From: Argopecten irradians
Lineage: Eukaryota; Mollusca; Bivalvia; Pectinida; Pectinidae
Assembly: GCF_041381155.1 (NCBI RefSeq)
Contig: NC_091135.1
Span: forward strand, 3,241,620 to 3,305,619
Direction of reading: 5' to 3'
Length of the DNA stretch: 64,000 nt
The translations under genes and the position numbers were made by a program. Of the stretch, positions 16,070 through 57,078 are shown piece after piece; position 1 is the first letter of the stretch, and each line of letters begins with the position of its first letter. Below the pieces are notes generated by a model that worked only from the letters and a program-made list of their open reading frames with translations, had not been told where the DNA came from and made no database searches.

Positions 16070-16151
16070 TCAGTTGGCAGGTCCAGGATACTCAAACAAA
16101 GCTGCTGCTCCCATCCCTGTCCCCATACACATAGACACCACACCGTAGGAC
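16070..16151 (-). CDS. ACAA1: thiolase exon 12 (C-terminus)
   Basis: 82 nt from TTTTACAG to TGA at 16070-16072. Encodes (K)[19 protein letters not shown] then EYPGPAN. The CxG catalytic motif (CMG) is present, and the end resembles other metazoan ACAA1 proteins. Confidence 0.93.
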
Positions 16152-19100
16152 CTGTAAAACAGAACATGTGATTGGTCAGTAGAGACATCACAACGAAGGA
16201 CCTGTAAAACAGAACATCTGATTGGTCAGTAAAGACACCACACCGTAGGACCTGTAAAACAGAACATCTGATTGGTCAGTAAAGACACCACACCGTAGGA
16301 CCTGTAAAACAGAACATGTGATTGGTCAGTAGAGACATCACAACGAATGACCTGTAAAACAGAACATCTGATTGGTCAGTAAAGACACCACACCGTAGGA
16401 CCTGTAAAACAGAACATCTGATTGGTCAGTAAAGACACCACACCGTAGGACCTGTAAAACAGAACATCTGATTAGTCAGTAAAGACACCACACCGTAGGA
16501 CCTGTAAAACAGAACATGTGATTGGTCAGTAGAGACATCACAACGAATGACCTGTAAAACAGAACATCTGATTGGTCAGTAAAGACACCACACCGTAGGA
16601 CCTGTAAAACAGAACATCTGATTGGTCAGTAAAGACCACACCGTAGGACCTGTAAAACAGAACATCTGATTTGTCAGTAAAGACACCACACCGTAGGACC
16701 TGTAAAACAGAATATCTGATTGGTCAGAAGAAACACCACACTGTATGACATATATAAAACAGAACATCTGATTGGTCAGTACATACACCACACTGTATGA
16801 CATATACAAAACAGAACATCTGATTGGTCAGTACAGACACCACACTGTATGACATATATAAAACAGAACATCTGATTGGTCAGTACAGACACCACACTGT
16901 ATGACATATATAAAACAGAACATCTGATTGGTCAGTACAGACACCAAACCTGTTATACAGAACACCTAATTGGTCAGCAGGGTACATTAATTCTTTACTT
17001 TTTGTTTGCACAAGAGCTTGGAAAAAACAGCGCCTCTTAATTTGCTTATTCTTTGTTTCTAGGAGAGTTTAAAACGTATGTCTTGTTATTTATATATATG
17101 ATATAAACCTGATTACCACATGATTTTGTGTGACTTGATTTAATTAAGACCCTTGCATGTTCACCTACCGTATTCGTTCCAACAAGCGCCCAGGGCGTAT
17201 ACAAATTGAAAAGAATGAAAAGGTGCTAATAGAATGAAATTGTATTGCAAATTTATACAATTTTGTGTAGTTTTTGGTATTGATTTATGCCTGGGCAATT
17301 GAAATCGAGGCCTCAAATAGGGGGAAGGGCGCTTATAGGGACATGAGTACTTATTAGGTCGAATACGGTATATTATTATTCTAGTTCCTACCAAATCTGC
17401 ATAAAAAATGTACAACATTTACTTCAGCTAGGGAGCTAAAAAAATGGAATTATTATGATAGATTTTTTGTTAGATCAATTTTCTTACTTGATCCCACTCA
17501 CTAAATCTAGCATTATAAGTGGGAAAGTAGGAAAGTGATCATGAGACATAAACAATACATATGTGCATGTATATACAACTCTCTGATGTTGGAAAATGTG
17601 TCCAAGACATCCTTAATTATGAGGAATATACTGTTTGCTTGCTTGTTTGTTTGTTTAATTTACGTCCTATTAACAACTAGGGTCATGTAAGAACAGCCTC
17701 CCATGTATGCAGTGTGTAGCGTGTAAGTAGCGTGCTGTGCATTTTTTGGGAGACTGCGGTATATTTGTGTTGTCTTCTTGTATAGCGAAATTTCCCATTT
17801 TTAGTGCTATATCACTGAAGCATGCCGCTGAAGACACCAAGCAACACACCCCACCCGATCACATTATACTGACAACGGGCAAACCAGTCGTCTTACTCCC
17901 TGTATGCTGAGTGCTTAGCAGGAGTAGATTAACTACTACCTTTATAGACTTCCGTGTGTCTCGGCCAGGGGACAGAACCCAGAGCCTTCCTCACAGGGGC
18001 AAACGCTCAACTCAAGGCCAAAAATGAGGCAGTGTCGAGGGAGACAGTAAGAAGAAGAAAGTACATGCAAGTTAAGAAGAGAAAAGCTAAGACACCATTT
18101 ATGATAGGTGCAATTCTACTACCCTACCTGCAGGGCTACATGTATAATATTATCCAAGGACAATTTTTTTTTTATTCCTAGGTATACATACAAACCAGAG
18201 ATATAACTACTACCGAATAGGTAGAAAGGGGCTTAACTCTTGAAGTTTTGACAGACAGTGATCAATTTCATAAATCACTTAAAAATATATAAGTTGATAC
18301 CATATACACATTGTAAAAAATTTTGCCAAATTAAAAAGACAATGGAAATTAACATTTTACAAAATCCTGCATATAAACCACGTTTCACCTGTCACTTGAT
18401 ACAACAAAAGCCTCATATCTATTTCAGAACATAAACACCACTTTTCAGTTATATAGCATATGTCTGATGCTATGTAAAGGAATTGAGTTAAACTTGATGA
18501 GGTTTCTTTATCTAATATTCAGGCACGTGCACATGCAATTCTAAAAATGAAATTTTCCACTAGCCACTATACATACAAATAGTTTCACCTGCACTGATCA
18601 GAACTCTACTAACCTACATGGATATTTGATTTTTTGTTTCAATACAACATGTAAAATGTTGAACATTTCTTTTATATATTATGTCACTATTAGTAAAGAA
18701 AAATTATGAACTGAAATTATTCCCCTGTTTTGTTTTACAAGGGCCTATTCAATGTGTAACTTTACCACGAGTTGATAAAACTAATGTAAATCCATTTTGA
18801 ACATTCTAATCTAAGATACATACACAGACTAACTTTATATGTGATATGTAAATATCAAGTATCTTACTTTTTTCCTCTGCGTTTGAGCTCGTGAAGGAGT
18901 GTGGCAATCTGTCTAGCACCGGTACAGCCTAATGGATGACCCAGAGCGATGGCGCCGCCCTTCGGGTTGACTTTCTCCGAAGGAAGTCCAAGTTTATCGA
19001 CACAGTATTTAGCTTGACTAGCAAAGGCTTCATTGATCTCGAAAATCTCTATCTCTTCCTTGGTCATTCCTGATGGCAAATAAAGCAATACATTATACAC

Positions 19101-22100
19101 CAAGCTATTCTCTCTATCACAGATAAATCCAGTTATATTAATAAACTGAAAACACGTGTGCGTTATACACTATAACCAAAACTGAAGACACATGTGTATT
19201 AAACACTATAACTTCAACTGAAGACACATGTGTATTAAACACTATAACTTATACTGAAGACACATGTGTATTAAACACTATAACTTCAACTGAAGACACA
19301 TGTGTATTAAACACTATAACTTATACTGAAGACACATGTGTATTAAACACTATAACTTAAACTGAAGACACATGTGTATTAAACACTATAACTTCAACTG
19401 AAGACACATGTGTATTAAACACTATAACTTAAACTGAAGACACATGTGTATTAAACACTATAACTTATACCGAAGACACATGCGTACTAGACACTATAAC
19501 TTATACTGAAGACACATGTGTATTAAACACTATAACTTATACTGAAGACACATATGTATTAAACACTATAACTTCAACTGAAGACACATGTGTATTAAAC
19601 ACTATAACTTAAACTGAAGACACATGTGTATTAAACACTATAAATTCAACTGAAGACACATGTGTATTAAACACTATAACTTAACTGAAGACACATGTGT
19701 ATTAAACACTATAACTTAAACTGAAGACACATGTGTATTAAACACTATAACTTAAACTGAAGACACATGTGTATTAAACACTATAACTTAAACTGAAGAC
19801 ACATGTGTATTAAACACTATAACTTAAACTGAAGACACATGTGTATTAAACACTATAACTTAAACTGAAGACACATGTGTATTAAACACTATAACTTAAA
19901 CTTGAAGACACATGTGTATTAAACACTATAACTTAAACTGAAGACACATGTGTATTAAACACTATAACTTCAACTGAAGACACATGTGTATTAAACACTA
20001 TAACTTAAACTGAAGACACATGTGTATTAAACACTATAACTTAAACTGAAGACACATGTGTATTAAACACTATAACTTAAACTGAAGACACATGTGTATT
20101 AAACACTATAACTTATACTGAAGACACATGTGTATTAAACACTATAACTTCAACTGAAGACACATGCGTACTAAGACACTATAACTTATACTGAAGACGC
20201 ATGCGTACTAGACACTATAACTTATACTGAAGACACATGTGTATTAAACACTATAACTTAAACTGAAGACACATGTGTATTAAACACTATAACTTATACT
20301 GAAGACACATGTGTATTAAACACTATAACTTCAACTGAAGACACATGTGTATTAAACACTATAACTTCAACTGAAGACACATGTGTATTAAACACTATAA
20401 CTTCAACTGAAGACACATGTGTATTAAACACTATAACTTATACTGAAGACACATGTGTATTAAACACTATAACTTAAACTGAAGACACATGTGTATTAAA
20501 CACTATAACTTAAACTGAAGACACATGTGTATTAAACACTATAACTTCAACTGAAGACACATGTGTATTAAACACTATAACTTAAACTGAAGACACATGT
20601 GTATTAAACACTATAACTTCAACTGAAGACACATGTGTATTAAACACTATAACTTAAACTGAAGACACATGTGTATTAAACACTATAACTTCAACTGAAG
20701 ACACATGTGTATTAAACACTATAACTTAAACTGAAGACACATGTGTATTAAACACTATAACTTAAACTGAAGACACATGTGTATTAAACACTATAACTTC
20801 AACTGAAGACACATGTGTATTAAACACTATAACTTAAACTGAAGACACATGTGTATTAAACACTATAACTTCAACTGAAGACACATGTGTATTAAACACT
20901 ATAACTTAAACTGAAGACACATGTGTATTAAACACTATAACTTAAACTGAAGACACATGTGTATTAAACACTATAACTTAAATTACATATTTTCTAATAA
21001 GACCAAACACTCTATCTCAAAAACCTACATCTACACACGTTCACCTTCATTTATGTTTGTGTAAAGTTTTATTCAAATATATTTCACATGATTTGGGTTT
21101 TTTTTTAATTTTATCAAAACTTATTTCAAAATGGAAAATAGAATGCATAACAAGGTCAGTCTAAATTTGTTCTTTCTCCATTCTATCTTGGCAGATATGA
21201 CCAGCAGGTTTTAACTTAAAATTAGCACAATCCTATCTTTTTTTAAATAAAATGTGTATGCCAAGAAACAATGTGTGTGTGACAAGATTGATCACAATCC
21301 AGTAAAAATATAATGGCAAAGACACAGACCAATATATGACAGTCCTAAACTGCCAATTTGTATGACTAGTACCGTATTCGACCCAATAAGCCCCAGGGCG
21401 TTTAAATATTTTGAAAAAGGGCTAATAAGACGAAATTATTGCAATACTATACAGCTTTTTGTCAAAATTTATGCCAGGGCAATTAAAATCAAGCTCTTAA
21501 AAATAGGGGCACTTAAAAGGACATGGGCGCTTATTGGGGCGAATACGGTATATCAGTTTGAGATACAAAATTACTAAGAGACAAACCATATATCTTTGAT
21601 AAAGCCTGATGTTAATTAAAAGGTTTTTTTCTATGAGACTAAGACTACTGTCTTTTATCTAGAAATATCAAAGTTATGATGATATACTCCCTAACTTTTA
21701 CCTGTTTTTGCCAATAGCATAGGAATAGCGATAGCTGGTCCAATCCCCATGATCTCGGGAGGGCAGCCCCCTACAGCGTACCCCCTCAGGACTCCAAGGA
21801 TTGGCAGATTGAGGCGAACAGCCTCCGATCTTCTGGCTAGTAAAACAGCAGCAGCACCATCACTCACCTGGCTACTGTTACCTGTGTACAGGTAAAAAAT
21901 AATCAATTACTCACCTGGCTACTGTTCCTGTGTACAGGTAAACAAGAGATCCCAGAGGGATCTTGGCGCCCACCAAAGTTTGATCTACGTCTGACAATGG
22001 AAAGAGGGATCTTTTCTCTGCTTTTCAAACTTTTTCAAACATACAACATATATGAAATATGAAACAGATCATCTCATTACTTTTTTAGAAATAGCAGTAA

Positions 22101-25100
22101 CAAACTTCAACTATCAAAATCCAACCTGTTGGCCATCTTGTTGACCGATCGGTCCTAAAATGCAATATGCACAACTAAGGTCCTAGGGGAACATACAACA
22201 AAATTTGAGAGAGATTGCTTCAGTACTTTCTGAGAAATAGCGGTAACAAACTTTAACTATCAAGATCCAAGATGGCGGTCTGGCGGCCATCTTATTGACC
22301 GATCTGTCCCAAAATACATTATGCACAACTAGGGCCCTAGGGGAACCTACAAATGAAATTTGAAAGAGATCCCTTCAGTACTTTCTGAGAAATAGCGGTA
22401 ACAAACTTTAACTATCAAAATCCAACATGGCTGCCTGGCGGCCATCTTGTTGACCAATCCGTCCCAAAATGCAATATGCACAACAAGGGCCCTAGGGGAA
22501 CCTACAAATGAAATTTGAAAGAGATCCCTTCAGTACTTTCTGAAAAATAGCGGTAACAAACTTTGGCTATCAAATCCAAGATGGCTACCTGTCGGCCATC
22601 TTGTTGACCGATCGGTCCCAAAATGCAATATGCACAACTTGGGCCCTAGGGGAACCTACATATGAAATTTGAAAGAGATCCCTTCAGTACTTTCTGAGAA
22701 ATAGCGGTAACAAACTTCAATTGTCAAAATCCAAGATGGCTGCCTGGCGGCCATCTTGTTGACCGATCCGTCCCAAAATGCAATATGCACAACTAGGGCC
22801 CTAGAGGGACCTTCATATAAAATTTGAGAGAGATCCCTTCAGTACTTTCTGAGAAATAGCGGTAACAAACTTCAATTGTCAAAATCCAAGATGGCGGCCT
22901 GGCGGCCATCTTGTTAACTGATCCGTCCCAAAATGCAATATGCATAACTAGGGCCCTAGGGGAACCTACAAATGAAATTTGAAAGAGATCCCTTCAGTAC
23001 TTTCTGAAAAATAGCGGCAACAAACTTTAACTATCAAAATCCAAGATGGCGGCCTGGCGGCCATCTTGTTCACTGATCGGTCCCAAAATGCAATATGCAC
23101 AACTAGGGCCCTAGAGGAACCTACATATGAAATTTGAGAAAGATCCCTTCAGCCCTTTCGGAGAAATAGCGGTAACAAGAAATGTTAACGGACGGAAGGA
23201 CGGACGGACGGACGGACGGAAGGACGGACGGACGGACGGACGGACGGACGGACGGACGGAAGGACGGACGACAGACCACGGACGAAAAGTGATTTGAATA
23301 GCCCACCATCTGATGATGGTGGGCTAAAAATAATCAATTAGTGGGGTTCCAATCACTTACGATCTCTACCACCCTGTTATCGGAACCCCTGGAGTACAAA
23401 GGATGCTGTTTCCTGTGTACAGGTAAAAATATAATTAATTATCTCATACCTATGGGTGTATTACTGGCTGATCTAGGGCAATACACTCATGTCGTTTAAG
23501 GCTGTATTGCATGGCTACCAATGCAATAAAGCTTTGTGACGTCACAGCATTAACAAAAGTACTAATTTTTTGGTACAATTTTAATATTTTTGTTAGAAAC
23601 TAAGCTGGATTTACTTAAAAAGCTACCAACAACAAGATTTGCGTTGAAAATATCACACAATTTTCATGTATGGAGATTTGACTTGCAGTCACATTTTTTT
23701 CGAAATTATTTCAAAATGGTGGAAAATAATAGTAGTAAAACTGCAATAAAATGCCAAGGTATGAGAGAAAAATACTCTTTCATATGTGGATATGAAGGAT
23801 GGGGATATTCTACCCTCAGAATCACAAAATGTTGTAAAACCCTCGGCAAGCCTCGGCTTTTACTACATTTTGTGACGCTTGGGTAGAATATCCCTATCCT
23901 TCATATCCACATATGAAAGAGTTTTAATATGACATACATGATTATCGTTACCCGAGTACACGTGAAACCCAATCTAGCAGCATTTAGTAGATTTAGACCA
24001 TCCAGTTACTTTTGATGGAATAAAAAAAGGAATTAATTCTGACAGAATGGAATATTACTAAACTAGAGGTGAGCTGCCTTAGAGCAGAATACTCTAAAAT
24101 ATGATTTACCAAAAAAATTGATTTTAAGATATGCTTGATTCCCGAGTTTTAAACTAGGGTACATATGTATACTGTTAATTAGATAGGGGAGATATTCTAT
24201 TATTGGGACCAGCTGGGAAACAGGCGAAATAATCTAGTATTTGGATCAGCTGAGAAATAGGGGAGATAGTCTAAAATTGGATTCAGTTGAGAAAAGGGGA
24301 GACAATCTAATATTGCATGGGTTCAGCTGGAAAATAGGGGAGATAATCGAGAATCTGGTTCATTTGGAAAATAAGGAAGATAATCAGGTATTGGGTTCAG
24401 ATTAAAAAAAGGGGAGATAATCGAGTATAAGGTTAAGATGAGAAATAGAGGTGATAGTCTAGTATTGGGTTCAGCTTGGAAATAGGGAAGATAATCAAGT
24501 ATTGGGTTCAGCTGAGAAATAGAGGAGATAATTGAGTATTGAGTTCAGCTTGGAAATAGGGGAGATAATCGAGTATAAGGTTCAGATGAGAAATAGAGGT
24601 GATAGTCTAGTATTGGGTTCAGCTGGGAAATAGAGGAGATAATCGAGTATTGGGTTCAGATGGGAAATAGGGGAGATAATCGAGTTTTGGGTTCAGCTAG
24701 GAAATAGGGGAGATAATGGATATCGGGTTCAGTTGGGAAATAGGGGAGATAATTGAGTATTGGGTTCAGCTAGGAAATAGGGAGATAATCGAGTATTGGG
24801 TTCAGCTGGGAAATAGAGGTGATAGTCTAGTATTGGGTTCAGTTGGGAAATAGGGGAGATAATTGAGTATTGGGTTCAGCTAGGAAATAGGGGAGATAAT
24901 TGAGTATTGGGTTCATCTGGGAAATAGGGGAGATAATCAAGTATTGGGTTTCAGCTGGGAAATAGGGGAGATAATCAAGTTTTGGGTTCAGATGGGAAAT
25001 AGGGGAGATAATCAGGTATTGGGTTCAGCTGGGAAATAGGCGAGATAATTGAGTATTGGGTTCAGTTGGGAAAAAGGGGAGATAATCAAGTATTGGGTTC

Positions 25101-28100: not shown

Positions 28101-31100
28101 CAAAACGGAAAGTTTGAAGTGGTTACATAATCAGACAAGCCTGGCACCAAGTAATGAATAAACACTTAAACAATATAATTCTTAAACTAGGCACACAAAA
28201 TCTTAAATCATCTTGTACTATATGTGTTATTCAATTGAAAAAGGTTTTTTTTGTTTGTTTGAGTTTTAAAGCCCATCGACAACTGAGGTCTTTTAGGGCT
28301 AAACTACAACAAGTCATGCATTCGTTTTGAAAACGAAGGATTTACATATATATTTATATATGATTGCACATGTACATGTATGTGTATATTATTAACTTCT
28401 TTTAAAGATGCTCCGCCGCTGACAAATAGTATTTTTTCAAAGGAGCAGACAATTTCGTACTTTTCTTCAGTTACAAATGTTACTTACTTAACACCATTAC
28501 CATCGTTGAAAAGTTTGAGCTTCTAATTTTACTTCAAGTTAAAAATATCTCAAAAATAATTAATTGCATCCCAAAAAAATTCTAAAAAATTTCTAAAAAC
28601 TATATCCTATCTGGAATGATGTACTCATTGCGCATGCACCAAAAGCAAAATGAATTATTTCATATTATTTTTTGTGTAAATTAGACATATATATGCAAGA
28701 TTAAACGATTAAACACCAATTATTATTCAAATGATGAATATCATTTATGCTCTGTCGGCGGTGGAGCATCTTTAAACTTATAAAACTGCATGGTTTTTAT
28801 AAACAAGAGGCCCAGAGGGCCTGTATCGCTCACCTGGTTTGTAATGCCAAGTAATGTTCTGAATACAGGTTCATTGTTTTCTTTTCTGAAGGAATTTTAA
28901 TATTAACCTCTAAATCCTCTATTGGGCCCCACCCCTCCCGCCCCCAGGGGGTCAGAGCCAAAATTTATACAAGTTCTGTTCCCCTTCTTCCAAGGATGTT
29001 TGTGGCCAAATTTGGTTACAATCCATGCAGAACTCTATGACTAGTAGCGATTTAAATGATTTACCTCTATTTCCCCTATTGGGCCCCACCCCTCCCGCCC
29101 CCAGGGGGTCAGAGCCAAAATTTATACAAGTTCTGTTCCCCTTCTTCCAAGGATGTTTGTGGCCAAATTTGGTTACAATCCATGCAGAACTCTATGACTA
29201 GTAGCGATTTAAATGATTTACCTCTATTTCCCCTATTGGGCCCCGCCCCTCCTGCCCCCGGGGGGTCAGAGCCAAAATTTAAACAAATTCTGTTCCCTTT
29301 CCCCAAAGGATGTCTGTGGCCAAATTTGGTTACATTCCATTCAGAACTCTATGACTAGTAGCGATTTAAAGGATTTACCTCTATTACCCCTATTGGGCCC
29401 CGCCCCTCCTGCCCCCAGGGGACCAGCCAAAATTTATACAAGTTCTGTTCCCCTTCCCCAAAGGATGTTTGTGGCCAAATTTGGTTACATTCCATTCAGA
29501 ACTCTATGAAAAGTAGTGATTTAAAGGATTTACCTCTATTACCCCTATTGGGCCCTGCCCCTCCTGCCCCCAGGGGACCAGAGCCAAAATTTTATACAAG
29601 TTCTGTTCCCCTTCCCCCAAGGATGTTTGTGTGGCCAAATTTGGTTACAATTCATGTAGAGCTCTAGGACAAGTAGAGATTTAAAGGATTTACCTCTATT
29701 TCCCCTATTGGGCCCTGCCCCTCCTGCCCCCAGGGGGTCAGAGCCAAAATTTATACAAGGTCTGTTCCCCCTCCCCCAAGGATGTTTGTGGCCAAATTTG
29801 GTTACATTCCATTCAGAACTCTATACTCTATGACTAGTAGCGAGTTAAAGGAAATGTTGACGGACGGACGGACGACGGATGCCGCGCCATGACATAAGCT
29901 CACCGGCCCTTCGGGCCAGGTGAGCTAAAAACAGGAAATTTTGACTATCTCCTGATTACAACATTTATTTTCTTGTAATAACGAAATTAAAAAGAAAGGT
30001 AATTACCCAGCACCGATTCCCATATCACATTGATTATTTTTTAATTGAACCTACAACAGAAAGAAAAAACATAAGTTCAAGAGCTATAACAAAGATATTT
30101 GCAGGTGGAGCACATTCAGTAATGCGGGTGGCTATGCCGATAAATAATATAAAGGATGCGAGTCAATTCCAATCATTTTTATAATTTTACCTGCGACGTT
30201 CATGAAGGCCTGAAGTCCAGAGGAAACATTGTCGGTTGTTTGGGTTGTGTATACAGGTGTTGTCTCAGGGATCCCACTGTTAATATATACAGAATATCAC
30301 TTAGCTTGTAATAAGTTAATACATTGTTAATATATACAGAATATCACTTAGCTTGTAATAAGTTAATACATTGTTAATATATACAGAATATCACTTAGCT
30401 TGTGATAAGTTAATACATTATTAATATATACAAAATATCACTTAGCTTGTAATAAGTTAATACATTGTTAATATATACAGAATATCACTTAGTTTGTAAT
30501 AAGTTAATACATTGTTAATATATACAGAATATCACTTAGGTTGTAATAAGTTAATACATTGTTAATATATACAGAATATCACTTAGCTTGTAATAAGTTA
30601 ATACATTGTTAATATATACAAAATATCACTTAGCTTGTAATAAGTTAATACATTGTTAATATATACAGAATATCACTTAGCTTGTGATAAGTTAATAGGT
30701 TGTAATATATACAAAATATCACTTAGCTTGTGATAAGTTAATAGGTTGTAATATATACAAAATATCACTTAGTTTGTAATAAGTTAATACATTGTTAATA
30801 TACATTGTATACAGAATATCACTTAGCTTGTAATAAGCTTTAGAAACTCTCAGTTCCATCACAGGAATTATAAACTATTTGGGTATATAACCAATAAGTA
30901 AATTTAGTAGTAACATTCTCAGGATATTGAACAGAACAAAAAAAAAGAAGATGCATTCGGTTGGAAGGACAGGGTGAAAGCAGTATATTTTATTATCAAT
31001 ATTAATTGTTTTGTAAGGGGTTTGATAACTAGAGTGGAACAGTCAGTGACATTACCTATAAAACTGGGCCACTCTGGTTGTGAAGGCATCCTTGGAGTCA

Positions 31101-34100
31101 TTTACATTGCCTAAAATAAAATGATAATAGGATAAGAAATAGGTACACATACATGTGTGCATACATAATGTACCTATACATATGTCACCTACAAGTTGTG
31201 GAGACATCTCTACACTATTACACATATACATTCCTACACATATGTCACCTATCTGTTGTGGATACAACCCTATACTAGTACACATATACATACCTACACT
31301 TATGTCGCCTATCTGTTGTGGATACAACCTTATACTAGTACACATATACATACCTACACTTATGTCGCCTATCTGTTGTGGAGACAACCCTATACTAGTA
31401 CACATATACATTCCTACACATATGTCACCTATCTGTTGTGGATACAACCCTATACTAGTACACATATACATACCTACACTTATGTCCCCTATCTGTTGTG
31501 GATACAACCCGATACTAGTACACATATACATACCTGCACATATGTCACCTATCTGTTGTGGAGACAACCCTATACTAGTACACATATACATACCTACACA
31601 TATGTCACCTATCTGTTGTGGAGACAACCCTATACTAGTACACATATACATACCTACACATATGTAACCTATCTGTTGTTAATACAACCCTATACTAGTA
31701 CACATATACATACCTACACATATGTCACCTATCTGTTGTGGACACAACCCTATACTAGTACACATATACATGCCTACACATATGTCACCTATCTGTTGTG
31801 GAGACAACCCTATACTAGTACACATATACATACCTACACATATGTCGCCTATCTGTTGTGGAGACAACCTTATACTAGTACACATATACATACCTACACT
31901 TATGTCATCTACAAGTTGTGGATACAACCCTATATTAGAACACATATACATACCTACACATATGTCGCCTATCTGTTTTTGATACAACCCTATACAAGTA
32001 CACATATACATACCTACACATATGTCACCTATTTGTTGTGAAGATATATCTCTATAATATTACACATATACATTCCTACACATATGTCGCCTATCTGTTG
32101 TGGACACAACCCTAAACTAGTACACATATAAGTACCTACACATATGTCACCTATCTGTTGTGGATACAACCCTATATTAGTACACTTTATACATACCTAC
32201 ACATATGTTGCCTGTATCCTGTGGAGACATCTCTATACTAGTACACATATACATACCTACACATATGTCGTTTATCTGTTTCTGATACAACCCTATACAA
32301 GTACACATATACATACCTACACATATGTCGTTTATCTGTTTATGATACAACTGATACAAGTACACATATACATACCTACACATATGTCATCTACAAGTTG
32401 TGGATACAACTCTATACAAGTACACATATACATACCTACACTTATGTCATCTACAAGTTGTGGATACAACCCTATATTAGAACACATATACATACCTACA
32501 CATATGTCGCCTATCTGTTTTTGATACAACCCTATACAAGTACACATATACATACCTACACATATGTCACCTATTTGTTGTGAAGATATCTCTATAATAT
32601 TACACATATACATTCCTACACATATGTCGCCTATCTGTTGTGGACACAACCCTAAACTAGTACACATATACATACCTACACATATGTCATCTACAAGTTG
32701 TGGATACAACCCTATATTAGAACACATATACATACCTACACATATGTCGCCTATCTGTTGTGAAGATATCTCTATACAATTATACATATACATACCTACA
32801 CATATGTCGCCTGTATCCTGTGGAGACATCTCTATACTAGTACACATATACATACCTACACATATGTCACCTATCTGTTGTGGACACAACCCTATACTAG
32901 TACACATATACATACCTACACATATGTCACCTATCTGTTGTGGATACAACCCTATACTAGTACACATATACATACATACACATATGTCACCTATTTGTTG
33001 TGGATACAACACTATACTAGTACACATATACATACCACACATATGTTGCCTATCTGTTTTGGAGACATCTCTACACTATTACACATATACATACCTACAC
33101 ATATGTCACCTATCTGTTGTGGATACAACCCTATACTATTACACATATATGTACCTACATATATGTCGCCTATCTGTTGTGGATACAACCCTATACTAGT
33201 ACACATATACATACCTACACATATGTCACCTATCTGTTGTGGATACAACCCTATACTAGTACACATATACATACCTACACTTATGTCACCTATCTGTTGT
33301 GGACACAACCCTATATTAGTACACATATATATACCTACACATATGTCACCTATCTGTTGTGGATACAACCCTATACTAGTACACATATACATACCTACAC
33401 ATATGTCGCCTGTATCCTGTGGAGACATCTCTATACTAGTACACACATATACATACCTACACATATGTCACCTATCTGTTGTGGATACAACCCTATACTA
33501 GTACACATATACATACCTACACATATGTCACCTATCTGTTGTGGATACAACCCTATACTAGTACACATATACATACCTACACATATGTCACCTATTTGTT
33601 GTGGATACAACACTATACTAGCACACATATACATAACACACATATGTTGCCTATCTGTTTTGGAGACATCTCTACACTATTACACATATACATACCTACA
33701 CATATGTCACTTCTGTTGTGGATACAACCCTATACTATTACACATATATGTACCTACACATATGTCGCCTATCTGTTGTGGATACAACCCTATACTAGTA
33801 CACATATACATACCTACATATATGTCATCTACAAGTTGTGGATACAACCCTTAACTAGTACACATATACATACCTACACATATGTCGCCTATCTGTTGTG
33901 GATACAACCCTATACTAGTACACATATATGTATCTACTACACATATGTCGCCTATCTGTTGTGGATACAACCCTATACTAGTACACATATACATACCTAC
34001 ACATATGCCACCTATCTGTTGTGGATACAACCTATACTAGTACACATATACATACCTACACATATGTCCGCCAATCTGTTGTTGACACAACCCTAAACTA

Positions 34101-36945
34101 GTACACCCTATACTAGTACACATATACATTCCTACACATATGTCACCTATCTGTTGTGGATACAACCCTATACTAGTACACATATACATACCTACACATA
34201 TGTCGCCTATCTGTTGTGGATACAACCCTATACTAGTACACATATACATACCTACACATATGTCGCCTATCTGTTGTGGATACAACCCTATACTAGTACA
34301 CATATACATACCTACACATATGTCGCCTATCTGTTGTGGATACAACCCTATACTAGTACACATATACATACCTACACATATGTCGCCTATCTGTTGTGGA
34401 TACAACCCTATACTAGTACACATATACATACCTACACATATGTCGCCTATCTGTTGTGGAGATATTCCACTCTCCTTTATTACACCTTGGAACACTGCTG
34501 CCAGCATGTCATCTCCATAGGTATCCTGTTTCCAAAGACATGTTCAATATTCTTTTATCAATATGAGATCTAGAGAAATTTTAATTACAGTCCTGATAAA
34601 TTCATTTCAAGACTAATTTATCAATAAACTACCATAATTTTTCAAACTTTATATTTTCCCTACAGACTCTTTGACTTTTATAATACAATCAGTTGATAAT
34701 CTGCTATTGAGAACTGATACTGTTGACCATTATAACCTGGACCCCTACAAGAACAGTTGCCTTTATTTCTGAAAAAACTCTACAGTATTATACAGAGGCA
34801 AATTCTGCATGGATTGTATCCAAATTTGGCCAGAATCATCCTTGGAGGAAGGGGAACGAAGATTTGGCTCTGACCCCAAGGGGCAGGATGGGCAGGGCCC
34901 AATAGGGGAAATAGAGGTTAATTCTTTAAATTGCTACCAGTCATAGAGTTCTACATGGATTGTAACAAAATTTGGCCAGAAACATCCATTGGGGAAGGGA
35001 ACAGAGTTTGTATTAATTTTGGCTCTGTCCCCCGGGGGCAGGAGAGGCAGGGCCCAATCGGGGAAATAGAGGTTAATACTTTAAATTGCTACTCATCATA
35101 GAGTTCTACATGGATTGTAACCAAATACGACCAGAAACATCCTTGGAGGAAGGGGAACAAAGATTGTATAAATTTTGGCTCTGACCCCCAAGGGGCAGGA
35201 TGGGCGGGGCCCAATATGGGAAATAGAGGTTAATTCTTTAAATTGCTACTAGTCATAGAGTTCTAGCTACGTGGATTGTAACAAAATTTGGCCAGAAACA
35301 TCCATTAGGGAAGGGAACAGAGTTTGTATTAATTTTGGCTCTGTCCCCCGAGGGCAGGAGGGGCGGGGCCCAATGGGGGAAATAGAGGTTAATTCTTTAA
35401 ATTGCTACTAATCATAAAGTTCTGCTTGGATTGTAACCAAATTTTGCCCAGAAACATCCTTGGGTTTAAATGTTGGCTTTGACCCCCTGGATCAGAAATA
35501 CATGTAGTGGGGCCCATTAGGGGATCAAAGAGAAATATTCAAATTTGTTCAGAAAAGAAACAATGAACCTATGTTCAGAACAGTACTTAGCATCACATAC
35601 CAGGTGAATGATACATGCCCTCTGGGCCTTTTGTTTGCATCAATTATGTACAGTATACATGACCTTTAATTTACCTACATGTACAAATGTAGATCCTAAT
35701 ATTTGACTCAGTGACCCTGACCTTTGGTCAATTAAATTGACCCTTTTTTGTGTGTATACACCAGTGAAACATGCAGTTTGACCTCTGCTCATTTTCAATG
35801 TATACAATTGAAAATGTATGCAAATTGTATTTTGATATTATTCTTTGTATAAAGCAAATAAGTTGAAAAACTTAATGCAAATAAAGAATTTGAATTATGT
35901 ACATGTATGCATTGTATCATTTAATTTTTGTGTGTGTATTTAATAATAATCATATATATAATATAAGTTGTCATTGGCAGCAAATTAAATATATATATAT
36001 ATATACAGTGCAATATATGATGTCACAAATACAGTTTTTGGAATATAATATTGTTACTTTGAAAGCTAATATAATTAAACCAGACTTTTAAACATTCATT
36101 GATAGTGTACATTAATTTGTAGATTTTCAATTAGCCCGTGATACTCTGGCCCCTACACCAGACATTATGACGGACAGATGTCTGGTGTAGGGCCAGAGCG
36201 CAGTGCTTTATCAAAAGGTGGAACTCGCCGACACCGTTTGGTATCGGGCCAGGTCATTTCCAATTCAGACTGACCTCCGAGAAGCCCCACTTACCTTGGC
36301 CTTTTCAACAAATGAATAATTTATCTACCCAAATATAGCAATCCGTTGAGATTAGAGGCGATTTGCATACTATGAGAAAATGGTGACGACGACGAGGAAG
36401 ATTTCAAGTTGCATAAAGGAAACTACTGTATTGACATTGGATTGCTGTGGGTTAAGATAAATTATTCATTTGTTGAAAAGACCAAGTTAAGTGACTCGAC
36501 CTTCTCGGTGGTAATATATGTTTTGTAAGCAGTCTCAATCGGAGATGACCTGGCCCGATGCCAAACAGTGTCGGCGGATTCACCTTTTGATATAGCACTG
36601 CGCTCTGGCCCTACACCAGACATCTATCTGTCAAAGTCTGGTGTCAGGGCCAGAGTATCTCGGGCTCATGTACAATGTACATGTATTAATTCAGTATAAA
36701 TTTATTGTACAAATTAAAAACATATCATTTTATGATCACAAGGCTCCTTAATTAAATCAGCAAAGCACGTGAAGACGATGTACCTTGAATGACCCCCTGT
36801 TTGCCTTGCCAATGGGTGTCCTAAGAGCAGATATAATAACTACATCGTCAGGCCTGTCTACAAATCGTCCTGTCGATCCAGCCACTGGGGAAGGCCGTAC
36901 TTCGGTCTGGGGCAGGTGCCCGAACACAACCCTCATACGATCCAT
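16070..36945 (-). CDS. ACAA1: peroxisomal 3-ketoacyl-CoA thiolase, 12 exons (two lesions as written)
   Basis: Thiolase cleaving 3-ketoacyl-CoA with CoA in the last step of peroxisomal beta-oxidation. Exons on the minus strand: 36945-36784, 34525-34432, 31110-31056, 30276-30191, 30050-30007, 28083-27988, 27775-27695, 27341-27245, 26071-25981, 21881-21702, 19069-18868, 16151-16070. All introns are GT-AG and the phases match at every junction except exon 4/5. The sum is 1270 nt, one more than 423 codons; vertebrate ACAA1 is about 424 residues. The N-terminus has R3-M4-x5-H10-L11, a PTS2-like signal. Family motifs are present in order: [58 protein letters not shown] and [12 protein letters not shown]. 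The expected NRQC motif is not in frame in exon 4, and exon 5 has an extra A that creates a stop. It is either a real gene with sequence errors or a decaying copy. Confidence 0.9.
16121..16980 (-). repeat. 50-bp minisatellite made of the exon 12 acceptor and exon start
   Basis: About 17 copies. On the minus strand a unit reads CTGACCAATCAGATGTTCTG TTTTACAG|GTCCTACGGTGTGGTGTCT, so each repeats the intron end, the AG and the first 19 nt of exon 12. Units from about 16140 to 16720 keep TTTTACAG|GTCC. Those at 16730-16960 have drifted (TTTTATATATGTCATACAG). The unit length is not a multiple of three, so using an upstream AG would usually shift the frame. Confidence 0.95.
17166..17370. mobile_element. 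MITE with TACCGTATTCG ends, copy 1
   Basis: TACCGTATTCGTTCCAACAA to TTATTAGGTCGAATACGGTA; 205 bp, inverted ends, TA borders. Confidence 0.88.
17372..18867 (-). other. thiolase intron 11, distal part
   Basis: Contains a degraded SINE-like stretch around 17640-18030 that begins with TTTGTTTGTTTAATTTACGT and CCTATTAACAACTAGGGTCA. This tail is also seen in the SINE at 40465-40680. Otherwise AT-rich, with no exon. Confidence 0.5.
18868..19069 (-). CDS. ACAA1: thiolase exon 11
   Basis: 202 nt from TTGCCATCAG to AA|GTAAGAT. Encodes [40 protein letters not shown] and [20 protein letters not shown] then LKRRGK. NEAF and the catalytic His in [11 protein letters not shown] are intact. Confidence 0.95.
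19140..20990 (-). repeat. 36-bp minisatellite in intron 10
   Basis: About 51 highly homogeneous copies of CTGAAGACACATGTGTATTA AACACTATAACTTAAA; the last three bases vary among AAA, CAA and ATA. A few units with TGCGTACTAGAC form a minor variant. Each unit contains the palindrome ACACATGTGT. It starts about 70 bp upstream of exon 11 in gene orientation but contains no exon sequence. Confidence 0.95.
21370..21550. mobile_element. MITE with TACCGTATTCG ends, copy 2
   Basis: TACCGTATTCGACCCAATAA to TTATTGGGGCGAATACGGTA; 181 bp with inverted ends and TA borders. Confidence 0.88.
21702..21881 (-). CDS. ACAA1: thiolase exon 10
   Basis: 180 nt from GTACACAG to ACAG|GTAAAA, phase 1 in and out. Encodes [20 protein letters not shown] then [19 protein letters not shown] and [20 protein letters not shown]. 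Strong match to the thiolase C-terminal domain start. Confidence 0.95.
21863..21941 (-). repeat. tandem copies of the exon 10 acceptor junction
   Basis: Plus-strand CTCACCTGGCTACTGTTACC TGTGTACAGG plus an AT-rich tail (21863-21909) is repeated as CTCACCTGGCTACTGTTCCT GTGTACAGG at 21910-21939, where pearl-like element B interrupts it. A third, shorter copy (GCTGTTTCCTGTGTACAGG) is at about 23405-23424. Each includes the polypyrimidine end, the AG and about 18 nt of exon 10. Confidence 0.85.
21941..23330 (+). mobile_element. pearl-like element B, complete (about 7-8 cores)
   Basis: Starts AACAAGAGATCCCAGAGGGA (then TCTTGGCGCCCACC). Core repeats of about 155 bp contain CAAGATGGCGGCCTGGCGGC and AGGGCCCTAGGGGAACCTAC. 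They are followed by a (GGAC)n-type tract and a terminal hairpin TAGCCCACCATC TGATGATGGTGGGCTAAAAA. It sits in a second copy of the exon 10 junction, so the first copy (21863-21909) serves as a nearby empty site. Confidence 0.85.
23773..23922. repeat. 150-bp palindrome
   Basis: The arms ACTCTTTCATATGTGGATAT and ATATCCACATATGAAAGAGT, with inner AATCACAAAATGTTGTAAAA / TTTACTACATTTTGTGACG and a centre CCTCGGCAAGCCTCGG. Arms are close to identical. Fold-back type insertion. Confidence 0.85.
24180..25410 (-). repeat. 37-bp minisatellite in intron 9
   Basis: About 30 variable copies built on TTGGGTTCAGCTGGGAAATA and GGGGAGATAATCGAGTA (plus strand). Unlike the arrays at exons 2, 4 and 12, it carries no recognisable exon sequence and lies about 0.6 kb from the nearest exon. 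Confidence 0.9.
25981..26071 (-). CDS. ACAA1: thiolase exon 9
   Basis: 91 nt from TCTTCCAG to GCAG|GTACAT. Encodes [20 protein letters not shown] then [10 protein letters not shown], the conserved (E/D)GIRP...L..L.PAF...GS.TAGN region. Confidence 0.93.
26477..27020 (+). mobile_element. pearl-like element C
   Basis: Starts AACAAGAGGCCCAAGGGTAT and then has about three tandem cores of about 148 bp (AGAAGAAGTTCAAAATGTG, CAAGATGGCGGCTGTGGCGG). The 3' part with a GGACGGCG-like tract is short and has no clear terminal hairpin. It shares the AACAAGAG start with types A and B but has a different core. Confidence 0.65.
27039..27224. mobile_element. MITE with TACCGTATTCG ends, copy 3
   Basis: TACCATATTGGACCCAATAA to TGGGTCGAATACGGTA; inverted ends, TA at both borders, about 186 bp. 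Same family as 17166-17370 and 21370-21550. All three lie in introns of the thiolase gene. Confidence 0.85.
27245..27341 (-). CDS. ACAA1: thiolase exon 8
   Basis: 97 nt from GACAACAG to ACA|GTAAGT. Encodes (R)[19 protein letters not shown] then [13 protein letters not shown], the charged loop of the family. Confidence 0.92.
27695..27775 (-). CDS. ACAA1: thiolase exon 7
   Basis: 81 nt from TTTCCAG to AACAG|GTCAAT. Encodes [20 protein letters not shown] then ALLSQN, matching the TSENVA...R..QD.FA..SQ block. Confidence 0.92.
27988..28083 (-). CDS. ACAA1: thiolase exon 6
   Basis: 96 nt, phase 2 in and out, donor GG|GTGAGT. Encodes (G)[19 protein letters not shown] then [12 protein letters not shown](G). 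The NCLIPMG segment is highly conserved in peroxisomal thiolases. Confidence 0.92.
28401..28776. mobile_element. 376-bp MITE, TIR TTTAAAGATGCTCC
   Basis: Begins TTTAAAGATGCTCCGCCGCT and ends GGCGGTGGAGCATCTTTAAA, clear inverted termini. A related copy split by another insertion lies at 37392-38142. No coding region. Confidence 0.85.
28802..29931 (+). mobile_element. pearl-like element A, complete (about 6 core repeats)
   Basis: 5' end AACAAGAGGCCCAGAGGGCC, a unique lead, about six tandem cores of about 155 bp (with TTTACCTCTATTTCCCCTAT and GCCAAAATTTATACAAG), an ACGG microsatellite, then a terminal hairpin AGCTCACCGGCCC TTC GGGCC AGGTGAGCT and AAAAA. This layout (leader, core tandem repeats, ACGG tract) is that of the pearl elements known from bivalves, which resemble Helitron/Helentron-related non-autonomous repeats. 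The family name rests on structure, not on a search. Confidence 0.8.
30007..30050 (-). CDS. ACAA1: thiolase exon 5 (frameshift in an A run)
   Basis: 44 nt between TTGTAG and donor GGTAATT. With five A the exon reads [14 protein letters not shown], exactly the family length and in phase with exon 6. With the six A present (30037-30042) the frame joined from exon 4 meets TAA at 30034-30036. IGAG matches the DIGIGAG-type motif of plant-like peroxisomal thiolases. Confidence 0.75.
30191..30276 (-). CDS. ACAA1: thiolase exon 4, active-site cysteine motif out of frame
   Basis: 86 nt, phase 2 in and phase 1 out. It reads [20 protein letters not shown] then [10 protein letters not shown]. Family members have NRQCSSGLQA with the nucleophile Cys. 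Here AACCGACAATGT, which would spell NRQC, is present but one frame off: about 5 extra nt precede it and one extra T (TGTTTCC for TGTTCC) follows, so the frame is restored by SSG. The TGT lies at 30226-30228. Confidence 0.85.
30278..30840 (-). repeat. 47-bp minisatellite abutting the exon 4 acceptor
   Basis: About 12 copies of TAATATATACAGAATATCAC plus TTAGCTTGTAATAAGTTAAT and ACATTGT (plus strand). The last unit forms the acceptor itself: minus-strand ATATTAACAG|TGGG at exon 4 against ATATTAACAATG in the other units. The array therefore starts at the splice site but the copies lack the AG at that point. Confidence 0.9.
31056..31110 (-). CDS. ACAA1: thiolase exon 3
   Basis: 55 nt between acceptor TTTTATTTTAG and donor AG|GTAATG. 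Encodes [18 protein letters not shown], joining exon 2 in phase 1 and exon 4 in phase 2. RVAQFYSGIPET matches the family, but the NDSKDAFT stretch lacks the usual QPGAGA-type loop. Confidence 0.8.
31186..34465 (-). repeat. 60-bp minisatellite made of the exon 2 end plus its donor site
   Basis: About 54-55 copies of a mostly 60-bp unit, reaching from inside exon 2 across almost all of intron 2. On the minus strand a unit reads CCACAACAGATAGGCGACAT then ATGTGTAG|GTATGT and an intronic ATATGTGTACTAGTATAGGG. Each unit thus repeats the coding end [10 protein letters not shown] and the 5' splice site. Read through, it is open and gives the 20-residue repeat [20 protein letters not shown]. The four units at 34201-34440 are identical. 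Some distal units lose the donor GT (GTAG|GAATGT) or carry GC, and subfamilies encode [10 protein letters not shown] or [10 protein letters not shown]. Confidence 0.95.
34432..34525 (-). CDS. ACAA1: thiolase exon 2
   Basis: 94 nt, from acceptor TTTGGAAACAG to a near-consensus donor AG|GTATGT. Encodes [20 protein letters not shown] then [11 protein letters not shown] and the first base of Gly, matching the region before GN(V) in thiolases. The last 28 nt and the donor are the seed of the 60-bp array in the next intron. Confidence 0.9.
34795..35638 (-). mobile_element. pearl-like element A, reversed and 3'-truncated
   Basis: Reading minus from 35638 it begins CAAACAAAAGGCCCAGAGGG, then about five diverged core repeats of about 155 bp (motifs GGGCCC, CCAAATTTGGCC in either orientation). 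It stops without the ACGG tract and terminal hairpin seen in the intact copies at 28802 and 48223. Confidence 0.75.
36133..36666. mobile_element. 534-bp fold-back element
   Basis: The arms start AGCCCGTGATACTCTGGCCC and end GGGCCAGAGTATCTCGGGCT. Inner arm pairs include CACCAGACAT, GCGCAGTGCT/AGCACTGCGC, GTTTGGTATCGGGCCAGGTC and AATGAATAATTTATC, so nearly the whole unit folds back on a short centre near 36395. No coding capacity. Confidence 0.85.
36784..36945 (-). CDS. ACAA1: thiolase exon 1 (PTS2 signal)
   Basis: 54 codons from ATG at 36945 to AAG before the donor GTACATCG (phase 0). Residues 1-11 ([11 protein letters not shown]) align with the start of mammalian peroxisomal thiolase. They keep the R-x6-H-L spacing of a PTS2, with Met in place of the usual Leu at the second position. 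[15 protein letters not shown] is the start of the thiolase fold. The start is chosen because the PTS2 must be N-terminal. Confidence 0.88.
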
Positions 36946-47100: not shown

Positions 47101-50100
47101 ATGAATCGTATATTGCTATTTGATATACATATATTTGTAATAATTATATCACATACTTTTCCACATCTTGCGAACCCTGACTGCCACATAGTGGTCGGTG
47201 CGCTGGTGTTCCACCTTTATATGAAACAGGATTGGCATATTGAGCAGATCATTGGTCAGACGATGTAGTTCTTCTACGCTTTTGACTGTCAGCTCACTAC
47301 AATACCAAACATTAATTTTTTGACATATAAATGGGTCAGGGGAGATAACTCTTTTGCCGTTAGAAATACTTTATTTACCTGGCATATTTCTATTTAGTAA
47401 CAGTTTAAACAATGGATTAACTGCTGCGCTCTCAGATAGGCTTTGCCTAAAATCATATTACCGTAATCTACTAATACGGGGGTTTCGAGATCCCAAAACG
47501 ACGTGGGTAAAGTACAATTTACCATTGATTAGTCCCACCACCTAGTGATTATTATGCCATCATTTAACGTGAGTTTCTCGACGTCATAATCACCGGAAGG
47601 TGGGACTAATCTACGGTAAATTGTACTTTACCCACGTCTTTTTGGGATCTTGAAACCCCCCTATTGAGCTTCGATACCTGGTTGCTGTCAATCCAGTCGA
47701 CCAGAACTGTACTCCCCTGACCAGGAATCGAACCCAGATCCACAATGTGAAATTCTACAGCTCTACTGACTGACCCAAAGAAGCATACTCCCCAGCTGAT
47801 TATGAGTGACATTTAATTTGTGTACTACTCTTTTTACAGATATTAATATTTAATTTAATTTTTGATATTTTTGCATACTACCAATTTGTATAATAACTGA
47901 ATTTTACAAGTTATACTGACATTTCTATTGGTTGAAAGTTTGAGGTTAGACTGAAAGAATTGAACGTCAAGTATTATAATAATGTTTTCACGAAGAAAAT
48001 TCATAGAAAATTTTAAAAGCTGTGATCATTGGCTATGATATCAATGTGCCACAATATAATTTATTTTATTGAAAATGTCAGTAAAAGCAATAAAAATTTA
48101 TGTGTATTAGCTTGTACTTCACTAAATCATTCATTAATCATTAATTCAAATCAAATAAGTATTATTGTCAATCTATACATGTATATCTTTGGGGTTTAAT
48201 TACATGTATGAAGTCATAGGCAAACAAGAGGCCCAGAGGGCCTGTATCGCTCACCTGGTTTGTTATGCCAAGTAATGATGTGAATACAGGTTCATTGTTT
48301 CTTTTCTGAAGGAATTTTAATATTAACCTCTAAATCCCCTATTGGGCCCCAACCCTCCTGCCCCCAGGGGGTCAGAGCTAGTCAGAGCCAAAATTTATAC
48401 AAGTTCTGTTCCCCTTCCCCCAAGAATATTTATGGCCAAATATGGTCACAATCCAAGCAAAACTCTAGGGCTAATAGCGATTTAAAGGATTTACCTCTAT
48501 TTCCCCTATTGGGCCCCGCCCCTCCTGCCCCCGGGTGGTCAGAGCCAAAATTTATACAAGTTCTGTTCCCCTTCCCCAAAGAATGTTTCTGGCCAAATTT
48601 GGTTACAATTCATGTAGAACTCTATGACTAGTAGCGATTCAAAGAAATTACCTCTATTTCCCCTATTGGGCCCCGCCCTTCCTGCCCCCGGGGGACCAGA
48701 GCCAAAAAAAAGTTCTGTTCCCCTTCCACCAAGGATGTTTCTGGCCAAATTTGGTTACAATCCATGCAGAACTCTAGGACAAGTAGTGATTTATAGGATT
48801 TACCTCTATTTCCCCTATTGGGCCCCGCCCCTCCTGCCCCTGGGGGGTCAGAGCCAAAATTTATAGAAGTTCTGTTCCCCTTCCCTTAAGGATGTTTGTG
48901 GCCAAATTTGGTTACAATCCATGCAGAACTCTAGGACAAGTAGCGATTTATAGGATTTACCTCTATTTCCCCTATTGGGCCCCACCCCTCCTGCCCCCGG
49001 GGGGTCAGAGCCAAAATTTATACAAGATCTGTTCCCCTTCCCGTAAGGATGTTTCTGGTCAAATTTGGTTACAATCCATGCAGAACTCTAGGACAAGTAG
49101 TGATTTATAGGATTTACCTTTATTTCCCGTATTGGGCCCCGCCCCTCCTGCCCCCGGGGGGTCAGAGCCAAAATTTATACAAGTTCTGTTTCCCTTCCCC
49201 CAAGGGTGTTTCTGGCCAAATTTGGTTACAATCCATGCAGAACTCTAGGACAAGTAGCGGTTTATAGGATTTACCTCTATTTCCCCTATTGGGCCCCGCC
49301 CCTCCTGCCCCCGGGGGATCAGAGCCAAAATTTATACAAGTTCTGTTCCCTTCCCCCAAGGATGTTTATGGCCAAATTTGGTTACAATACATGCAGAACT
49401 CTAGGACAAGTAGCGATTTATAGGATGTACCTCTATTTCCCCTATTGGGCCCCGCCCCTCCTGCCCGGGGGGACCAGAGCCAAAATTTATACAAGTTCTG
49501 TTCCCCTTCCCCCATGGATGTTTGTTGCCAAATTTGGTTACAATCCATGCAGAACTCTAGGACAAGTAGCGATTTATAGGATTTACCTCTATTTCCCCTA
49601 TTAAGCCCCACCCCTCCTGCCCCCGGGGGGGTCAGTGCCAAAATTTATACAAGTTCTGTTCCCCTTCCCCAAAGGATGTTTGTGGCCAAATTTGGTCACA
49701 ATCCATGCAGAACTCTAGGACAAGTAGCGATTTATAGGATTTACCTCTATTTCCCCTATTGGGCCCCCGCCCCTCCTGCCCCCTAGGACCAGAGCCAAAA
49801 TTTATACAAACTCAGTTCTTATTCTTAAAAGGATACTGGCCAAATTTGGTTACATTCCATGCAAAACTCTATGACTAGTAGCGATTAAAAGGATTTACCT
49901 CTATTTCCCCTATTGGGCCCCACCCCTCTAGCCCCCAGGGGACCAGAGCCAAAATTTATACAAGTTCTGTTCCCCTTCCCGTAAGGATGTTTGTGGCCAA
50001 ATTTGGTTACAATCCATGCAGAACTCTAGGACAAGTAGCGATTTATAGGATTTACCTCTATTTCCCCTATTGGGCCCCACCCCTCCTGCCCCCGGGGGGT

Positions 50101-56466: not shown

Positions 56467-57078
56467 TGAAAATCATTAAATGGTTTATATTATATAGTTC
56501 TACCAAAAACCATTAACAGTTTTACCGTGTCTTAGTCTTAGAATGATTTCAAATATTTGAAGTAGATCTACTCACCGTATGGTAACGACACCAGAAATAA
56601 GTAAGATTGTCGTTTTTATCTGCATTGTGGGATGTGTTTTGGATCCTGATGTTCCTTTATTATGATATATAAAGATAGATTCACAAGAAAAATCCTCCTC
56701 AGCCCCATTCATTGATGAAAATGCAGATAAAAGCGACAATCTTACCTCTGTTCAAATCCGGACTTTCCCAGTTTCGCTTCAAGGGGTACAGTTTGCCATG
56801 ACAACTGCCTACGAGAAACCAAAGCGGAGAACAGAGTCCTACCCGCTAAACCATTGCTAAAATCTTTTTAACTTAGCTAAATAACTTTTTAACTTAAGTT
56901 ATATATATATATTATACATCAAAACGGCTTCTATAACGATGTTAAAGCCTATACATTATTGTTGTCTAGTTCAAAGCACTGTCTATCGTCTCTATTTGCC
57001 TGGATACACTTAAGCAGTCGACCACTTCTTAATTCCAGAATATCCCGTAGAATACAAAACATAAAGCATAAAGTACTT
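56467..57078. other. flank of the transposase gene
   Basis: Contains an inverted pair TAAGATTGTCGTTTTTATCT (56602-56621) / AGATAAAAGCGACAATCTTA (about 56725-56744), and AACTTAAGTT near 56892. No gene. Confidence 0.45.

Follow-up and report, generated by a model that had tools for sequence, protein, structure and literature searches.

A candidate donor 'mirage': a 60-bp minisatellite repeating the exon 2 splice donor through an intron of a scallop peroxisomal thiolase gene

The closest described systems to the repeat reported here are the mirage minisatellites of amphioxus, known from the genes encoding Adh3, the globins BflGb6 and BflGb9, troponin C and PGBD5 (PMC3087553, PMC3902484). These repeats are described as length-unstable and as leaving regular splicing undisturbed, and RT-PCR suggested that splicing is regular (PMC3087553, PMC3902484). 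On sequence grounds, the scallop array is assigned to this already described type. Like the amphioxus repeats, it is accompanied by an acceptor version; it differs in that donor and acceptor arrays are found in a single gene, and in its size, with 54 units as opposed to the six and three of two BflGb6 haplotypes. Comparable repeats are also known outside amphioxus. Human segmental duplications contain internal tandem repeats at exon-intron boundaries, where minisatellites can alter splice patterns, and the alternative form has transcript support in most of the intron modifications (PMC2812944). In a potato RdRp gene, a duplication across the boundary has multiplied the splice signals (PMC4974935). 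The scallop array, by contrast, stays within an old intron, and no new intron has been created. Turri, Cuin and Porter are said to have described, in 1995, a minisatellite with multiple splice donors in human IFI6 (G1P3, 6-16), an interferon-induced transcript. Whereas the IFI6 donors are reportedly placed in the transcript, and alternative forms are likewise reported for most of the human boundary repeats, two limited protein searches found no alternative product of the scallop gene. No mollusc mirage was found in the literature on mirages or on molluscs, within the small share of matching titles and abstract openings that was covered.

The window, a stretch of 64,000 nucleotides for which protein matches indicate a scallop origin, carries on its minus strand a 12-exon gene (36945 to 16070) encoding a peroxisomal 3-ketoacyl-CoA thiolase of the ACAA1 type, with coding exons spanning 20.9 kb in total. 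The joined exon translation is 98% identical to P0001, the best protein match (420 aa), and 90% and 86% identical to the sequences from Pecten maximus and Mizuhopecten yessoensis, respectively. The assignment to ACAA1 agrees with the sequence matches, P0001 itself matching PDB 2iik (3-ketoacyl-CoA thiolase, peroxisomal). The features of the gene that bear on intron 2 are given below, with a slash marking the splice junction.

36784..36945, minus strand: exon 1, with the start codon and 54 codons (tblastn match and GT donor AAG/GTACAT)
34432..34525, minus strand: exon 2, whose last 29 nt form the exon-derived part of the 60-bp unit (exon mapping)
34426..34434, minus strand: true 5' splice site of intron 2, TAG/GTATGT (junction GDICV/GNVN in P0001)
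31163..34431, minus strand: 60-bp array of 54 full units and an 11-nt remnant (wrap-around alignment and TRF)
34191..34371, minus strand: four decoy donors that keep the frame, at 34371, 34311, 34251 and 34191, adding 20, 40, 60 and 80 aa (frame computed for each decoy)
34037..34039, minus strand: in-frame stop encountered on read-through of intron 2, in unit 7 (reading-frame scan)
31056..31110, minus strand: exon 3, preceded by the acceptor TTTTATTTTAG (exon mapping)
16070..16151, minus strand: exon 12, the last coding exon, with its first 19 nt lying within the acceptor array (exon mapping)

As assembled, the gene does not have an intact frame. The thiolase frame is not kept across exons 4 and 5 (30276-30007), with exon 4 lacking NRQC, which we take to be the thiolase active-site motif, and a stop being reached in exon 5; furthermore, exon 7 encodes a glutamate at a position where glycine is invariant in 21 aligned thiolases. 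These defects are what would be expected were the window's copy a pseudogene, spliced without selection. We consider this improbable, as open frames near-identical to P0001, which has the NRQC motif, are found in the remaining exons, and as a search of the 845.8 Mb assembly with P0001 found just one ACAA1-type locus, that of the window, the other thiolase matches having 34 to 56% identity. Given that no second such locus was found, the defects are more readily explained by a null allele or an error in the local sequence than by a pseudogene.

P0001 has four member sequences and three contigs, and carries the source label lgn, which presumably denotes the Logan assemblies. Its longest contig is 1,896 nt, as against the 20.9 kb span of the exons; hence P0001 appears spliced, and is probably the product of a spliced transcript. 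Apart from the disrupted stretches, three residues set it apart from the exon translation. The junctions between exons 2 and 3 and between exons 11 and 12 are normal, with P0001 reading straight across GDICV/GNV; as, in addition, every copy of the repeat unit lies inside intron 2, intron gain by tandem duplication was rejected. We infer that the animal from which P0001 derives carried the array, but its source may instead have been an animal, or a sister species, in which the array is short or absent. If P0001 does reflect this gene, then the donor and the acceptor that are used are the outermost of their respective arrays.

Intron 2 (34431-31111, minus strand) is 3,321 nt long and follows an exon ending ...TGTGTAG/GTATGT (exon 2, 34525-34432). 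An earlier note, made from the sequence alone, had described this intron as almost wholly a 60-bp array of around 54 copies, with four perfect copies adjoining the exon and donors at 34431, 34371, 34311, 34251 and 34191. Wrap-around alignment bore this out, with 54 full units and an 11-nt remnant covering 3,269 nt (98.4% of the intron), units 1-4 perfect and all five donor coordinates correct. It also moved the end of the array from 31186 to around 31163, and lengthened from 28 to 29 nt the copy of the exon end that the note had seen alongside the donor in every unit, and which is indeed present, in exact or varied form. Each unit is made up of 31 nt of the intron start, then the 29 nt copying the end of exon 2. 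Unit 5 has a single difference, whilst unit 6 extends to 76 nt, has lost its GT and is shifted in phase; insertions aside, the 54 units differ from the first at between 0 and 11 positions and share subtypes. Arrays of such length are often mis-sized in assemblies, and exons 4 and 5 point to imperfect local sequence; nevertheless, it is very improbable that the array is an assembly artefact, as this range of differences and the sharing of subtypes are unlike artificial duplication, and arrays are typical of this genome.

The true donor of intron 2 has a U1 pairing energy of -8.6 kcal/mol, the second strongest of the 11 donors in the gene, and of the 7,701 GT sites that the window has, those of the array among them, 1.2% pair with U1 equally well. 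With a decoy donor counted wherever a later unit begins (n=54), GT is kept in 46, such that the AG/GT splice signals characteristic of a mirage are present; 38 are identical to the true nine-base site, and one has stronger U1 pairing than the true donor. Upstream of the donor, an exact match to the exon of 29 nt or more is found in nine of the 54 decoys, reaching 31 nt in one of these. In the first four, an exact match of 29 nt upstream is joined to one of 46 to 226 nt downstream, far above chance.

The effect of using these decoys depends on their position. The earlier note had proposed that downstream donors would add whole 20-residue repeats to the enzyme in frame, and this is so for the first four; elsewhere, 41 of the 54 decoys would lead to a stop inside the insert, one to a frameshift and eight have no GT. 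With in-frame extensions available from four decoys only, the ladder has four rungs in frame, not fifty-four. The point of insertion would be G86, a residue that does not vary among the 21 aligned thiolases and lies 33 residues before C119 of NRQC, presumably the catalytic cysteine. When the array reading frame (156 aa) was compared with approximately 5.77 billion proteins, no candidate was found, the reach of this search being proteins of around 86 to 273 aa; the insert region of an insert-bearing thiolase, compared with the same number, gave eight candidates and a single match, to P0001, a protein that lacks the insert. Such searches would miss rare isoforms, and those with a single insert could hide in the 90%-identity cluster of P0001.

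These results bear on two ways in which the decoys might be used. The first is a functional form of the ladder that the earlier note had suggested, where array length and decoy choice yield useful length variants of the thiolase; it would be favoured by a period divisible by three (60 bp) and by the frame being kept at the four nearest decoys. It is nonetheless scarcely credible, given the fate of the other decoys, the absence of codon and donor conservation, the position of the insert at an invariant residue and the failure of the two limited protein searches to find the product. The second, a low-level use of the few decoys closest to the exon, with the +20, +40, +60 and +80 aa products being tolerated or removed and having no function, is unlikely, but a good deal less so: the first four decoys share with the true site 29 nt on the upstream side and 46 nt or more on the downstream side, are in frame and would generate exons of 154-334 nt, an ordinary size, whereas neither of the searches found an insert-bearing protein and the insert would, again, lie at the invariant G86. 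The earlier note's other suggestion, a tolerated decoy field, accords better with the data, as 38 of the 54 decoys retain the true nine bases with no visible constraint, whilst the sole near-identical product found has the normal junction.

We therefore regard it as likely that the array in intron 2 is a donor 'mirage', the decoys being neutral and bypassed by the spliceosome. A segment across the boundary of exon 2 and intron 2 would have been duplicated in tandem, and unequal exchange or replication slippage would then have expanded it into a minisatellite of 54 units, with the decoy donors arising as by-products of this growth. The spliceosome would use the donor joined to the body of exon 2, most likely through exon definition, in which sequence specific to the exon, together with the acceptor of exon 2, would be paired with the closest good donor, 94 nt downstream; the farther copies would be too distant from this acceptor, and be removed with the intron. 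In our reading, the decoys are ignored because the exon body fixes the splice site. Judged on the nucleotides around them, true sites and decoys cannot be told apart by local sequence.

Two observations complicate this account. The acceptor of exon 2 is the poorest in the gene, having a pyrimidine content of 45%, and 35 CAACAG sites in the array are similar (mean 46%), which makes exon definition less obvious. Equally, since the first four decoys would give exons of 154 to 334 nt, distance alone is insufficient to exclude them. RNA structure does not distinguish the true site either: its predicted accessibility is 0.0076, as is the decoy mean, and 19 of 53 decoys are as open. With predicted openness equal, the possibility that the decoys are hidden by structure was rejected, and no structural reason for the choice of donor was found. 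Recursive splice sites consist of AG/GT after a pyrimidine tract. Over the 20 nt preceding the 53 AG/GT sites in the array the pyrimidine content has a mean of 35% and a maximum of 45%, whilst in the 11 true acceptors it is 45 to 95%, the two ranges touching only at the weak acceptor of exon 2; recursive splicing was rejected for want of a tract.

UAGGGU is an hnRNP A1-type motif, and a repressor of this type might coat the array, leaving usable only the donor of exon 2, an exon that does not contain the motif. TAGGGT is kept in 36 of the 54 units, and hnRNP A1 is described as a functional competitor of SRSF1 in splicing (PMC8724738). Active silencing of this kind is distinctly unlikely, however, as the motif is missing from 18 of the 54 units and is, position by position, as variable as the remainder of the unit.

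Constraint on the array was assessed by placing the 54 units on a neighbour-joining tree and inferring steps by parsimony. The positions of the donor had 1.44 inferred steps per site, compared to 1.55 at other positions, and the donor window came 25th among 60 shifted windows. Simply counting the units that deviate makes the donor slightly less variable, at 2.2 units per position as against 3.6 elsewhere, but its window then still ranks no higher than 22 of 60. In the exon-like part there were 19, 11 and 15 steps at codon positions 1, 2 and 3 (over 10, 9 and 10 sites, respectively), and hence no third-position excess. Silent types made up 11 of the 51 observed substitution types and 34 of the 180 possible, whilst stop-making types accounted for none of the 51 and nine of the 180, numbers too few to judge. 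Selection on the decoys was rejected, given that donor turnover is about that of the rest of the unit and that there is no codon signature; the evolution of the array fits neutral turnover, as far as its sequence can indicate.

Local alignment revealed five decoys in which the exon match extends over 31 nt (units 44, 45, 48, 49 and 52, exact in 44), and six in which it covers 34 nt with mismatches. As the decoys with these extended matches are mostly distant from the exon, they would fit an origin in a boundary duplication with recent regrowth beside the exon, in that presumed order. Units spanning the exon-intron boundary, as in a mirage, are found both here (29 and 31 nt) and at exon 12, where 19 nt are exonic.

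A 300-base piece of the array had 30 matches in the whole assembly (845.8 Mb), in a search that scores the best candidates only and skips very common words. Seventeen were at the thiolase locus; the remaining 13, with 70-73% identity, all lay in one 50-54-bp array on contig C5, and no match to P0001 was present in the 30 kb examined around it. The suggestion that the array belongs to a dispersed repeat family was rejected, since among the best candidates scored the other matches are confined to this different array. No exact match to a 38-base piece was found in the viral contigs. The C5 array (L009 3036-5611) is a separate repeat, which has TATGTATATGTGTAC-like stretches in common with the unit of intron 2.

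Two further arrays in the thiolase gene lie at or next to an acceptor.

16133..16950, minus strand: acceptor array of 50-bp period in the last intron, made up of the exon copy and 16 units, of which the first is incomplete (repeat and boundary alignment)
30278..30837, minus strand: 47-bp intronic array ending 1 nt before the exon 4 junction (TRF and boundary comparison)

The first of these is, on the evidence of its units, the mirror case of the donor array in intron 2. Besides TACTGAC, which we assume to be branch-point-like, the 50-bp units contain an ACAG acceptor and the 19 nt that open exon 12. Upstream of the true exon 12 acceptor there are 16 ACAG sites, of which 11 share TTCTGTTTTACAG/G and eight share 22 bases. 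Use of 15 of the 16 would result in a stop in the added sequence, 21 to 72 codons past exon 11, replacing the normal C-terminus; the frame from the nearest (+50 nt) was free of stops as far as it was read. This gene offers a natural experiment on splice-site choice, with dozens of donors having the same local sequence in one intron and many similar competing acceptors in the last. Were the outermost sites the only ones used, the choice would have to rest on exon body and position, since local sequence could not make it. It also suggests that mirages are perhaps not specific to lancelets, and may arise wherever minisatellites fill introns. A more speculative proposal, and one we think doubtful, is that the gene has opposed ladders, of 54 decoy donors and at least 11 near-identical decoy acceptors, the outermost sites being used, and that array copy number tunes the output of correct enzyme as a length-variable brake on expression.

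In the 47-bp array, eight of 11 upstream copies read TATATTAACAATG, one base apart from the true exon 4 acceptor, TATATTAACAG/TG. The array also contains 20 TATTAAC motifs, which to our eye resemble branch points. At exon 10, two more partial copies of the acceptor are found upstream (23456-23390 and 21955-21913), with a 155-bp array in between. A 36-bp array of around 51 copies (19142-20982), having the acceptor-like TCTTCAG in 48 places, ends 72 nt before exon 11.

Minisatellites, defined as repeats with a period of 10 or more, at least three copies and a length of at least 100 bp, cover 27.4% of the window, 48.4% of the thiolase gene and 17.3% of the rest of the window; the mean cover on contig C5, sampled as 20 stretches of 10 kb at even intervals, is 28.6% (range 0 to 99.9%). 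Of the 10 arrays in the gene, as obtained by merging the TRF list by hand, two span a splice boundary, where the null mean is 1.44 (P = 0.43). The boundary arrays may, on this comparison, simply be a consequence of array density. Array edges fall within 30, 10 and 3 nt of a boundary in three, one and one of the 10 cases (P = 0.09, 0.33 and 0.13, respectively). Attraction of arrays to splice sites is not shown, their placement not being above chance.

Among the 10 open reading frames scanned, out of 385 of at least 40 aa outside the gene and the arrays, the only other gene detected in the window was a DDE_1 transposase. This is a 584-aa open reading frame (54721-56472) with DDE_1 and HTH_psq domains, which we take to be pogo/Tigger-like. 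Arrays of 155 to 157 bp are found at 22052-23270 and 48382-52428, each beside a four-base ACGG/GACG repeat, and arrays of 155 or 157 bp are also present in three of 20 other sampled stretches (L013, L028 and L029).
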